Below, in pieces: positions 1 through 5,689 of a stretch of DNA of 64,000 nucleotides. This DNA is from Mariniblastus sp. (lineage in GTDB: Bacteria > Planctomycetota > Planctomycetia > Pirellulales > Pirellulaceae). The position numbers and the translations under genes are program-made. Below the pieces are notes generated by a model. It was not told the DNA's origin and made no database searches. It saw only the letters and a program-made list of their open reading frames with translations. Where the stretch lies: assembly GCA_028823415.1 (NCBI GenBank), contig JAPKBL010000007.1:1-64000 (forward strand), given 5' to 3'. Each line of letters opens with the position of its first letter. Position 1 is the stretch's first letter.

Positions 1-349
1 CATCCATTCCTGGGACGTTGCTGATAAATCCGAATCCTTTGGTGTCGTTAAAAAACTTGACGGTTCCATTGCCTCTTGCGGTCATCTCTGCTGTAACCTC
101 GTCGCCGTTGCTGACAAATCCGAATCCTTTGGTGTCGTTAAAAAACTTGACGGTTCCATTGCCTCTTGCGGTCATCTCTGCTGTAACCTCGTCGCCGTTG
201 CTGACAAATCCGAATCCTTTGGTGTCGTTAAAAAACTTAACGGTTCCATTCTTAATCCGGTCCTGCGTCTTCTCCTGAGCTTGGATTGTCAGTGGGGCGA
301 GTGAAAAAATTAGCGTACAAGCCAGACTTAAAAAGGTAGCGCGATTCAT
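1..349 (-). CDS. Exported protein with tandem cold-shock-type repeats (3' end outside window)
   Basis: Read on the minus strand from the ATG at 349-347, this frame is open to the window edge (116 codons). Residues 1-25 form a classical signal peptide (MNRATFLSLACTLIFSLAPL, then an AQA-type cleavage site). After a short linker comes a 30-residue unit that starts NGTVKFFNDTKGFGFV and continues SNGDEVTAEMTARG. It occurs twice in full and begins a third time, where it diverges to GFGFISNVPGMD. The first half of each unit is the N-terminal part of a cold-shock domain, with the RNP1 motif KGFGF. The RNP2 part (VFVH) is missing from the two full units; the third copy may be a complete domain running off the window. 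Cold-shock proteins are normally cytoplasmic RNA/DNA binders, so the signal peptide is odd. The two full copies are nearly identical in DNA, pointing to recent duplication or gene conversion. Function unknown. Confidence 0.75.
   Translation of the reverse strand, partial: MNRATFLSLACTLIFSLAPLTIQAQEKTQDRIKNGTVKFFNDTKGFGFVSNGDEVTAEMTARGNGTVKFFNDTKGFGFVSNGDEVTAEMTARGNGTVKFFNDTKGFGFISNVPGMD
21..250. repeat. 90-bp tandem repeat, about 2.5 copies, coding
   Basis: Copies start at 21, 111 and 201 with a period of exactly 90 bp. The third ends near 250, where the unique N-terminal coding part of the minus-strand gene begins. I see only two differences between copies: position 24 (T against C, which changes Val to Ile in the protein) and position 239 (silent). 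The period is a multiple of three, so copy number can change without a frameshift. Arrays like this are also prone to assembly collapse. Confidence 0.9.
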
Positions 350-579
350 AAGTAAATCCTATTCGATTGGAAGCGATTTAGAGTGGTGCTTCCCTAGGTG
401 CAAATGGTGTGCCGGACTCAAATAAACGAAGAAAATCGGATCTTTGTCGGATTTCAATGCTGATTCTTTCTCAATTTGCGATCAATGTCTCAAATTGAAA
501 CTAATTGAGTTGATATGAGAATTTGAGTTGCCCTGTGAATTACCGCCAACATCTTGGTTAGATAGTTTTATCGATGGCG

Positions 580-2894: not shown

Positions 2895-3103
2895 GATAAT
2901 GAGTGCTGATGCGGCATTTATTTTTCGTTGAATTGAAAAATTCCGATTTTTCTGGGATTCTTTGGGCCCCGTTTACGCACTATTGTTAACGAAAGCGGTG
3001 CGCGAAGTTTACTGTGCCGTTCCTAGAGGGGGGCCTCCGTTCGACAAATTTTGTTCGACAAGCGGCCTTGCAATCAACTAATTCGGTGAACGAGATTACA
3101 AGC

Positions 3104-5689
3104 ATGGACTCTACGTACTTTAAGCGACTCGAAACCGCATTTAATAACGTAGAAGAGGCGAGTACGGACGCTCAGCGGCAGGAAATCATTTCGACGCTAA
3201 ATCTCAGTGATCCAGATATAGTCGAGGAACTTGAGACCCTTATCTCTTTGAAAAAAGAGCAAGATCTAATCAAAAGTCAGTCATCGGATAAGAGTTTATT
3301 TGACTTACTTTTGACAACATTGGGTGAGGGAAGTCGCAAAGATTCCTCTGCGAGCCTACTCCACTACCTTTCGGAAACTCATGGCACGTCGGGTTCAGAT
3401 GAAATTGCCATTCTGAGGGGGTTTTCGTTTCGAAAATTGATCGCAACGGGGGCGACGGGCTTTGTCTTCGAGGGGTGGGATGAAATTCTCTGTCGGCAAG
3501 TCGCAATAAAAGTACTATCGCCGTCGATTGCGAGTGAGGCAAGTTCTAAAAGTCGATTTCTAAGTGAAGCAAGGTTGGCGACCTCGATAGACCATAAGAA
3601 CGTTATCGATGTGTATCACGTTTCTGCAGACCAAGATTCAATACTTGTATTTTTTGTAATGGAGTGGTTTGAAGGAGGAACGCTGCAGGATTGGCTGGAT
3701 CACAACGATTTTGGGTTGGCGACGCTCCGATCTCGAATTTCTATTTTTAGTGAGTTAGTTTTAGGGTTGGATGCCATTCATGAGACGGGAATTATCCATC
3801 GTGATCTAAAGCCTGGAAACGTGATGATCAACGAGAAAACACGCGACCTAAAGATTCTTGATTTTGGTCTAGCAATTAACCCAGCGGTGGATGCTGAGAA
3901 AGTTACGCTTGCTGGGACTCCGCTTTATATGGCTCCAGAACAAATGGAAGGGGCGTCCCTATCGACTAAGACTGATCTGTTCGCGTTAGCTGAGATTGCC
4001 TGTTTACTTTTCACGGGGACTCATCCATTTGAAGCCCGTGATCTCGACGACTTATCGCGACAGCTTTTAAAGGGCCCGGATGGTTTGCGGGCAAATCCGT
4101 CAATTGATCCAAATCTAAAGGATGTATTGCTGAAGGGTCTTTGTCGGGAACCAAGTGGCCGGTATGAGAATGCAAAGAGTTTCGGAGTGGCAATTGAAAA
4201 TGCATTCGCAGATGTTTGTTTACCTGAGCTTAATAATTCCACGATTCCATTATTAGTTCCAACACAAAGCCAATCTCCGAATAGATTTCGGGATTTCAGT
4301 AGTTGGCTAATTAATCCATTGGTTTGGGTGGTGGTTGTCTGCCTTTCTGTGGGGGGGGCTTATCTGCTAAGAGGCGACTCTGCCCAACAGGCTGTCGAAA
4401 ATCCATCGACGGAGGTCGAAGTTGTTAAGCCACAAAAAGGCAAGTGGATTGATGAGCAGCATTTTGAAAATTATGAAGGGATTCACTTCGTTCAGGTTCA
4501 ACTTGGCAACGCGGGGCGAGAGGAGAAGGAGGCCTTCGCTAAGGAATACCCTGAGCTTTCGGAAAACCTTGGTTGGTCAAATTATAATCCCAGCGATCGC
4601 TGGCTGATTATGGAAGATCTCGTTTCTTCGAAACACTATCACGCAATCATGGGAATAGAAGCCGAGGTCCCCGATAACGAGGAAGTGATTTCTAATATCA
4701 CTTACGCTGATGTAAATGAGTTCTGTAAAAAGCTGACTAAAAACTGTCCAAATGGCCTTCAGTATACGCCAATTTCAAGGAATCAACTTTGCTATGCGAT
4801 TTACGGAAAACACCATTTTATCGATGGAGTACCGATAGACGATCTTAGCGATGCGTTTCTTAATTTGAGTAACGGTCAGTTGCCGGGTCAACAAAATCCC
4901 ACGACTCTCCCCTTGATCAGTGGGGTGTACGGTCAATCTTGGGAATGGACAGACGGTTACACGATTAAAGCACCTAAGCCAGATGGGATCGTTAGCTACA
5001 CGGACCGTATTGAGATGCCGCATGAGCGATCCTATCAAATTATGGGCGGGGGCCAGTCTGACATCTTTGTTCACCGCTCCAATATGGCCTCGGGAATGAA
5101 TGACTTTTATCACGACAGCGATAATCTTCTGTCGTCATTGGAGGCAGACGGACAAACAACATATTTGCGATCGATTATTTGTGGACAACCCGGTTGGGTT
5201 TCTTATCGTTACCAGTTTCCTAAGGGGATTCGGAATGCGTCGATTGGGAATTGTCTACACCTGTTGCGGGAAAACAGCCAGGGCGGGATAAAATTAAGAT
5301 ATCGAAAATCAGAATTGGATCCCATCCTAGATGATTGTGATTGGCAAGTTGTGTTTGACAAATGCGATCCGAAAACTCGGCCGATTTCGGATGACGCGCT
5401 TGGTCCAGTGCGATTCGATGTAAGTAAAGTGTTAGCTGGAGCGATTGAAGTAGAATTGAAATATTGGGTGCAATCGCCGCAGGAGCCGACTTACTATGAA
5501 CAGATTGCCAGAACCGTGGATACACGGAGCCTTTCGGCACGACCGATGGAATTTGTGGTGGTGGCAGAAGGCCGCCTTGAATCGATGCGGCAGTTCTCAA
5601 CCGCACCCGCGTCTTTTCGCCACCCGTTAATCTCCTTTCGCGTAATGGCGGAGTGGAAAGACGATGGTGATTCAGAAGCCTGGCCCTAG
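3104..5689 (+). CDS. Membrane Ser/Thr protein kinase with FGE-like C-terminal domain
   Basis: I place the start at the ATG at 3104 (861 residues) rather than the upstream GTG at 3014, because MDSTYFKRLETAF matches the usual N-terminus of planctomycete kinases (a helical segment before the catalytic domain). The Hanks-type kinase domain covers about residues 105-375. It has a glycine loop GATGFV, VAIKVL, the catalytic loop HRDLKPGNV (about 231), DFGLA (about 251) and APEQ (about 275), so it should be active. One transmembrane helix follows near 405-425. The outer part, about 445-700, resembles an FGE-sulfatase fold: YTPISRNQLCYAIYG, GVYGQSWEWTDGY (about 610), IMGGGQSD, FVHRSN and YLRSIICG. The paired catalytic cysteines of true FGE (MCHRSYC in SUMF1) appear as VHRSNM here, so it is probably a sensor or binding module. 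Residues 700-861 are not recognised. Confidence 0.9.
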   Translation: MDSTYFKRLETAFNNVEEASTDAQRQEIISTLNLSDPDIVEELETLISLKKEQDLIKSQSSDKSLFDLLLTTLGEGSRKDSSASLLHYLSETHGTSGSDEIAILRGFSFRKLIATGATGFVFEGWDEILCRQVAIKVLSPSIASEASSKSRFLSEARLATSIDHKNVIDVYHVSADQDSILVFFVMEWFEGGTLQDWLDHNDFGLATLRSRISIFSELVLGLDAIHETGIIHRDLKPGNVMINEKTRDLKILDFGLAINPAVDAEKVTLAGTPLYMAPEQMEGASLSTKTDLFALAEIACLLFTGTHPFEARDLDDLSRQLLKGPDGLRANPSIDPNLKDVLLKGLCREPSGRYENAKSFGVAIENAFADVCLPELNNSTIPLLVPTQSQSPNRFRDFSSWLINPLVWVVVVCLSVGGAYLLRGDSAQQAVENPSTEVEVVKPQKGKWIDEQHFENYEGIHFVQVQLGNAGREEKEAFAKEYPELSENLGWSNYNPSDRWLIMEDLVSSKHYHAIMGIEAEVPDNEEVISNITYADVNEFCKKLTKNCPNGLQYTPISRNQLCYAIYGKHHFIDGVPIDDLSDAFLNLSNGQLPGQQNPTTLPLISGVYGQSWEWTDGYTIKAPKPDGIVSYTDRIEMPHERSYQIMGGGQSDIFVHRSNMASGMNDFYHDSDNLLSSLEADGQTTYLRSIICGQPGWVSYRYQFPKGIRNASIGNCLHLLRENSQGGIKLRYRKSELDPILDDCDWQVVFDKCDPKTRPISDDALGPVRFDVSKVLAGAIEVELKYWVQSPQEPTYYEQIARTVDTRSLSARPMEFVVVAEGRLESMRQFSTAPASFRHPLISFRVMAEWKDDGDSEAWP

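Follow-up and report, generated by a model that had tools for sequence, protein, structure and literature searches.

The locus described here raises the question of how the first part of a cold-shock domain (CSD) came to be repeated in tandem behind an apparent export signal, and what such a protein might do outside the cytoplasm. It lies at the very start of the window, by which we mean the whole analyzed stretch of 64,000 nucleotides (bases 1-64000 of contig C262); position 1 is the contig end, and the gene is truncated there. The gene was read as the minus-strand open reading frame (ORF) 349..2, which runs past the window edge and encodes MNRATFLSLACTLIFSLAPLTIQAQEKTQDRIK, then two identical units NGTVKFFNDTKGFGFVSNGDEVTAEMTARG and finally a partial unit NGTVKFFNDTKGFGFISNVPGMD. 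The gene content, with an ECF sigma factor of PF07638, a Ser/Thr kinase, a 3-keto-disaccharide hydrolase and, in a relative, a sulfatase, fits a planctomycete, and our guess would be one of the Pirellulaceae. Our analysis confirms that the tandem repeat of half CSDs in this putatively exported protein is real; its copy number at the contig end is uncertain.

Architecture of the truncated gene

The predicted signal peptide MNRATFLSLACTLIFSLAPLTIQA (278..349, minus strand) shows a best mean hydropathy of 2.24 over 13 residues, with cleavage placed by eye after residue 24, and similar N-termini begin the proteins of the relatives, in agreement with the export signal proposed in the preliminary description. 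Signal-peptide-like N-termini were found in the 10 cases examined by hydropathy, which would speak against a cytoplasmic location of these proteins. Seven bases 5' of the start codon the sequence reads AGGA (357..360, minus strand), a likely ribosome-binding site, and the signal peptide is followed by the short linker QEKTQDRIK (251..277, minus strand; ORF translation). The half-CSD units 1 (161..250) and 2 (71..160), both on the minus strand and with the same protein sequence NGTVKFFNDTKGFGFVSNGDEVTAEMTARG, were delimited by translation, Pfam profile matches and Tandem Repeats Finder. Unit 3 (NGTVKFFNDTKGFGFISNVPGMD; 2..70, minus strand), which is truncated by the contig end, was delimited by translation and the frames of relatives; it departs after GFIS into NVPGMD, leaving two full 30-residue units. 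Its counterpart in the relatives from g1 and g54 continues into a GGPxTGCTFEIMDIL segment (GCTFE segment), which follows the last half unit as a conserved segment in complete members and lies beyond the contig end in the window.

On the DNA level, Tandem Repeats Finder reports for positions 16-250 a period of 90 with 2.6 copies and 98% matches, and the window units are 96-99% identical to each other, which bears out the near-identity of the copies noted earlier. The Pfam CSD profile (PF00313) matched the window ORF with 51.8 bits in total (E 7.4e-14, cut-off 27), the three stretches covering only positions 2-19, 2-22 and 2-22 of 66, so that the initial reading as half cold-shock units is upheld by a profile that covers its first third only, three times. 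The RNP1 motif K-G-[FY]-G-[FY] on strand 2 is present in the window units. The half-unit matches stop at positions 19-26 of the 66, and the earlier observation that RNP2 is skipped therefore also stands: RNP2 on strand 3 is absent from the half units when compared with the CSD profile, and by the same comparison the second half of the CSD, hence a complete five-stranded barrel, occurs in none of the window units. NCBIfam models of cold-shock proteins (CSPs) match the half-CSD stretch, every one below its cut-off, and the PHROGs label of the protein is 'cold shock protein'. The additional suggestion that the spacer GDEVTAEMTARG resembles the last CSD strands had to be abandoned, because 843 of 5000 shuffles align with the second half of the closest CSP at least as well, and a remnant of beta-4 is thus not supported; the spacers of sister species read GDEGDQDAAEMTSRG and DGDGDQDSNEVTSRG.

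The openness of the ORF is no proof of a gene, because other reading frames across the repeat are likewise open, and the proof is carried by homologues and the substitution pattern. The remainder of the truncated gene was not found in the own genome, which holds only a paralog on contig C47 and a decayed copy on C95. A collapsed assembly, considered in the preliminary description, is unlikely to have caused the arrangement, because tandem units exist in independent assemblies too (G022, G016, G208 and G199). The structure prediction also proposed there was run on the window ORF and turned out uninformative: the AlphaFold2 models reached a mean pLDDT of 53.6 with the ORF alone and 51.9 with 14 CSP rows, and because the two poor models differ in their strand pattern we make no claim on its fold.

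Distribution, locus and origin of the half units

A first search over 60 genomes gave five with a match, own genome included. In the subsequent family search, a profile built from the last unit and the segment behind it matched 18 of the 241 genomes of family f1. Five of these carry the half unit together with the GCTFE segment, namely G000 (the own genome, on C47), G016, G017 and G022 from the same genus and G118 from genus g54; one (G007) carries a second exported family, three carry the repeats of genus g79, two are CSP-type (an ordinary CSP in G080, a CSP-type frame truncated by the contig end in G109), and seven were left out because they have no frame with the unit. Altogether, the search for the 30-residue unit in related genomes, advised from the beginning, found half-CSD units in apparently exported frames of 8 of the 241 genomes, own genome included, and in three genera; at least two tandem units are present in six of the eight (G000, G016, G022, G199, G200, G208). 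Within the genus the gene is patchy (4 of 28 genomes, including the own). An order-wide scan (396 genomes, six with matches including the own) gave no further half-CSD carriers, G080 again being an ordinary CSP. Phylum-wide, 40 of 392 genomes matched, own genome included, and the eight loci read are apparently ordinary full-length CSPs. More than one unit occurred in none of 90 CSP-like frames from 79 of 80 other loci (best 80 of 206 stretches, named genomes); an export signal was listed for two of these frames by a crude check for an upstream Met and a hydrophobic stretch, neither of them convincing.

Outside the window, the DNA identity from unit to unit amounts to 81% for the two copies of G022, 95% for the two of G016, 92-96% for the three of G208 and 85-90% for the three of G199. 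The units of g79 belong to large, putatively exported proteins with three units of 28 residues in G208, three units about 60 residues apart in G199 and two in G200, and the flanks of these three genes align mutually. The exported protein exists in 4 of 22 g79 genomes (G199, G200, G203, G208); in G203, no half-CSD units were found in the frames seen, which an assembly gap breaks. The RNP1 motif is partly degraded in g79 (KDFGV in one G199 unit, KGFRI and KGSRI in G200), its last F is replaced by L in the gene on contig C2 of G118 (G118:C2), and its lysine and glycines are conserved in g1. The g79 proteins (L114, L116, L111, L200) contain several further short repeats, VRKKPGR, NDPIPGIDVIVEK and SDSEAIEYGLIAALM. 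The second exported family has GPTGGCTFEIEDLF near its N-terminus followed by a full CSD and was found in G007 and on contig C33 of G118. A 515-residue frame on contig C115 of G016 (L133) starts with the same GPTGGCTFEIEDLF and goes on with other sequence, perhaps by further segment shuffling.

The neighbors of the window gene are the ECF sigma factor (2325-2894) and the Ser/Thr kinase (3014-5689). Their DNA aligns with the flanks of the genes in G016 and G017, and G017 and G022 have the opposite flank in common, including a 3-keto-disaccharide hydrolase-like gene; because the flanks align, the window gene is placed at the same locus as the genes of its congeners. The C47 paralog resides at a different locus. 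The stretch between the exported gene and the sigma factor gene (774-2325) is gene-poor with apparent remnants of small exported ORFs: it contains MKFPFLYAVVIAIGLLAVQSDC at about 1291 (plus strand), an acidic Cys-bearing ORF at 1445-1672 with a GATGGA repeat and an ORF at 1682-1960. Positions 267-773, i.e. about 520 bases with the signal peptide and the upstream non-coding DNA, are 79% identical to L194:5189-5710 in G118 from another genus, whereas the sigma factor/kinase DNA is only 66-71% identical among congeners. This difference hints at an exchange between genera, as far as DNA identities can tell. A decayed third copy of the gene start is situated in the own genome (G000:C95:13575-13810, L220), with a stop soon after the signal region, and G017 harbors a broken second copy (G017:C7:138155).

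Regarding the source of the CSD, the three resident CSPs of the own genome read EGTIKRLTDKGFGFI or QGTIKKLTDKGFGFI and have no FFN; they represent a GTIK(R/K)..DKGFGFI type, to which with small variations 29 of 31 further CSP loci of the family belong (exceptions L112 and L113). Compared with these residents, the exported full CSDs reach 34-39% (G007) and 29-36% (G118) identity to the best-scoring resident-type CSPs among those listed. Their identity to the CSP of a Flavobacteriales MAG is 73% (G007) and 62% (G118), a likeness that is, over the VKFFNDTK stretch, partly by construction since the Bacteroidota CSPs had been picked with peptide patterns (e.g. VKFFNDTK) from the window protein, giving a biased reference set. 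A tree was calculated with 90 of 112 rows, after leaving out L113 (cut by a contig end), L147, CSPs outside 58-75 residues, second frames per locus and duplicates; of its 57 hit rows, three are from Pseudomonadota and not from Bacteroidota (L080, L090, L092). In this tree, which has few columns, unsettled bootstrap values and long branches that meet, G118's among them, the exported CSDs of G007 and G118 pair with each other (99/89) and then join the Flavobacteriales CSP (97/91) among Bacteroidota rows. A separate group (100/99) contains 30 of 31 family CSP rows, the exception L112 being of the Bacteroidota type, and two Pseudomonadota rows adjoin the residents. Furthermore, the fusion point in G007 retains an internal Met (AKMQTGTVKFF) where a free-standing CSP would start. 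The half units themselves offer with 20 residues too few positions for a tree; they are linked to the same source because of the shared GCTFE segment and the intermediate G118:C2. These comparisons make it probable that a cold-shock gene of the Bacteroidota type became joined to an export signal and was then split, its first half persisting and multiplying while the second decayed.

Selection and putative sigma-54 control

The intermediate character of G118:C2 is based on its tail DGWNDLFRGSGALPGLIDEINEGDDVRFNTE, which matches the CSD strands 3-4 of L060 with a score of 65 that was reached by none of 5000 shuffles; hence, this gene still has both CSD halves, separated by the GCTFE segment as an insert. 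The tail in G017 matches that of G118:C2 (0 of 5000 shuffles as good) and only weakly the CSD (61 of 5000), and for the C47 tail no match to the CSD was found (535 of 5000 as good). Among 10 pairs of genes, pN/pS values were 0.00-0.38 for the last unit, 0.23-0.50 for the segment behind it, 0.23-1.60 for the tail and 0.23-0.48 for the signal region; they come from few sites and non-independent pairs, with poorly aligned tails and some saturated synonymous sites. In nine of the 10 pairs the last unit was below the tail, and likewise in nine below the following segment. The comparison of C47 with unit 1 of G022 gave 8 synonymous and 0 non-synonymous changes in 14 codons; comparisons over 14-17 codons, such as this one, are short, close to saturated and mutually dependent. 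The lower pN/pS of the unit and the shuffle results together indicate conservation of the first half and drift of the second.

Two blocks are common to the upstream regions of all six genes compared (window, C47, G022, G016, G017, G118:C2). One is a sigma-54 -24/-12 type box of the form GG-N10-GC, in the window CGGCACACCATTTGCA (399..414, minus strand), 65 bases 5' of the start codon and at nearly the same position in the relatives. In the order given above the boxes score 10, 10, 11, 11, 11 and 11 of 11, at -65 to -69. The second exported family has boxes of 10 (G007), 10 (G118:C33) and 9 (G016:C115) at -64, and those of the g79 genes give mixed scores (9, 10 and 8 of 11). As a control, 8 of 2000 random window segments reach 10 and none of 2000 reaches 11; among 351,334 positions in 12 loci, 19 reach 10 and four reach 11, the latter being the boxes of G022, G016, G017 and G118:C2. 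Taken alone, the box of the window is at chance level in 64 kb (1 match, 1.04 expected), and it is credible only because of its conserved place. In this regard it should be mentioned that sigma-54 control of chaperone and stress genes has been predicted for Planctomycetia in a 2025 survey (PMC12316311).

The other block, TTGAGACATTGATCGCAAATTGAGA (469..493, minus strand), was recognized in the alignment of the upstream regions and by a genus scan, and represents a candidate site for a sigma-54 activator of the enhancer-binding type. With 0-2 mismatches, its pattern TTGAGACAnTGmTCGCAnAnTGAGA occurs in the 28 genomes of the genus solely before five half-CSD genes, from which it had been built, so that their own matching is by construction and the absence elsewhere is not. 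The reversed pattern as control gave two matches in G000 and one in G015. At three mismatches the element appears at three places in G014 and one in G027; these matches were judged unrelated, those of G014 belonging to an interspersed repeat of about 100 bases that lies near GCGTGGGCGTCAGAATCAGTTGAGACAGTGATC at three places (L216, L219, L221). At the decayed C95 copy the element has three mismatches, the box spacing is changed, the start codon is changed, with an in-frame ATG a few codons before, and the frame has 36 residues; at the broken copy of G017 the element was not found within three mismatches.

Possible function and comparison with known systems

Our leading explanation, as a whole chain still tentative and put somewhat short of probable, assumes that a Bacteroidota-type cold-shock gene would have been fused behind an export signal within the family and the CSD then split by a segment containing GCTFE. 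The second half would have decayed, while purifying selection would have preserved the first half (strands 1-2 with RNP1), of which tandem duplicates would have arisen in some species. A dedicated activator might switch on the gene from a sigma-54 promoter, and the Sec pathway would export the product. The repeated hairpins, which retain the RNP1 lysines and aromatic residues, could serve outside the cytoplasm as a series of weakly adhesive modules, whose most likely task would be to retain nucleic acid on the cell surface or within the matrix. Origin, architecture, selection and promoter are supported by the sequence comparisons, and the signal-peptide-like N-terminus points to export. Most likely, the exported hairpins would bind nucleic acid or each other. 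Weak multivalent nucleic-acid binding would be our first choice over self-assembly, the main rival, because the unit keeps the RNP1 lysines and aromatic residues; any such binding should be weak because RNP2 is missing, and a strict nucleic-acid role is doubtful in g79 because of the partly degraded motif.

The rival of self-assembly regards the protein as a functional amyloid or matrix protein, in which the freed CSD hairpins polymerize into cross-beta fibers that strengthen the matrix in a curli-like manner. Each unit corresponds to the first two strands, with two to three repeats behind the export signal, and CspB peptides, including one of the first two strands, have reportedly formed amyloid; moreover, some g79 copies lose the nucleic-acid residues of KGFGF while most keep TVKFFN. 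Nevertheless, we consider this reading doubtful, as g1 conserves the lysine and glycines of RNP1 in the way expected if binding mattered, and no dedicated secretion gene was noticed in the scanned part of the neighbors. A broader version, in which nature repeated the half-domain experiment by exporting and splitting a foreign CSD, the hairpin forming a sigma-54-controlled, self-assembling surface amyloid that also holds nucleic acid, with half-CSD repeats having arisen or spread in at least two genera, appears quite improbable to us. The gene could also be evolutionary debris, i.e. a functionless fused cold-shock gene with repeats from replication slippage. The patchy presence in the genus, the two broken copies and the freely diverging tails would suit this idea. 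However, pN/pS is low both in the unit and in the GCTFE segment, and the box and the element are kept in all six upstream regions, are worn at C95 and were not detected at the broken copy of G017, which makes this idea unlikely.

The small size, the repeats, the export signal and the dedicated regulation would equally fit the precursor of a secreted competition peptide, for example repeats of a Bacteroidota cold-shock hairpin that would aggregate together with the corresponding competitor protein. In favor of this idea, the unit reads Bacteroidota-like and NGTVKFFNDTKGFGFI is also found in L060, which had been detected with patterns from that very stretch; nonetheless, the proposal is purely speculative and in our opinion very improbable, and no processing enzyme, immunity gene or dedicated exporter came to our attention incidentally. 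We give least credit to an assembly artefact or an ordinary cytoplasmic CSP whose start was misread, despite the contig end, the repeats and the CSD match, because independent genomes again show signal-peptide-like starts and tandem units, the locus beside the ECF sigma factor and the kinase is syntenic, and none of the 90 CSP-like frames mentioned above has a second unit. 

With the CspA family (PF00313), the window protein shares strands 1-2 with RNP1 (GTVKFFN..KGFGF) in every unit, and the full-length proteins most closely related to the exported full CSDs are CSPs from Bacteroidota. It differs from this family in that RNP2 and strands 3-5 are missing from the window repeats, tandem half units stand behind an export signal, and the GCTFE segment replaces the second half in the relatives of the window gene. 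The g79 proteins with VRKKPGR repeats resemble it in their export-signal-like start, in the tandem half-CSD units of three of the four and in a 42-base core of G208, where 36 of 42 bases, including an unbroken run of the first 20, agree with the core of the window gene, whereas their N-terminus and flanking repeats are different and their units partly degraded. Curli are built from CsgA, a small protein that is exported and consists of short beta units in tandem. In this respect the window protein would be similar, provided that its units adopt the beta state for which poor models are the source; we know of no sequence relation between the two, and csg-type genes were not noticed here. CSPs outside the cell are represented by the secreted eukaryotic proteins YB-1 and DbpA, the latter following a calcium- and inflammasome-dependent route, which are full-length animal proteins for which the accessible parts of the reports mention no half-domain repeats (PMC6158828, PMC11506473). 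An exported half-CSD protein of bacteria was not found in our literature search, conducted mostly at title level, and the present case would be an unusual use of the cold-shock fold outside the bacterial cytoplasm.

The origin of new proteins by shuffling of sub-domain pieces is an old question, which has reportedly been tested in the laboratory with CspA halves. Riechmann and Winter are said to have obtained, in 2000, combinatorially shuffled proteins with a CspA half-domain by laboratory selection. There as here, the first part of a cold-shock protein is joined to foreign segments; their products were selected in the laboratory, whereas the present ones are natural, putatively exported genes, and their CspA half reportedly comprised three strands while the natural unit is shorter with two. 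Living species hold what appear to be successive stages of such a process, from the full exported CSD via the insert-split CSD and the half CSD with a decaying partner to the tandem half CSDs. A bacterium appears to have tagged for export a portion of a cold-shock gene that came from another phylum, and the case would show how a domain fragment can start a new exported protein.
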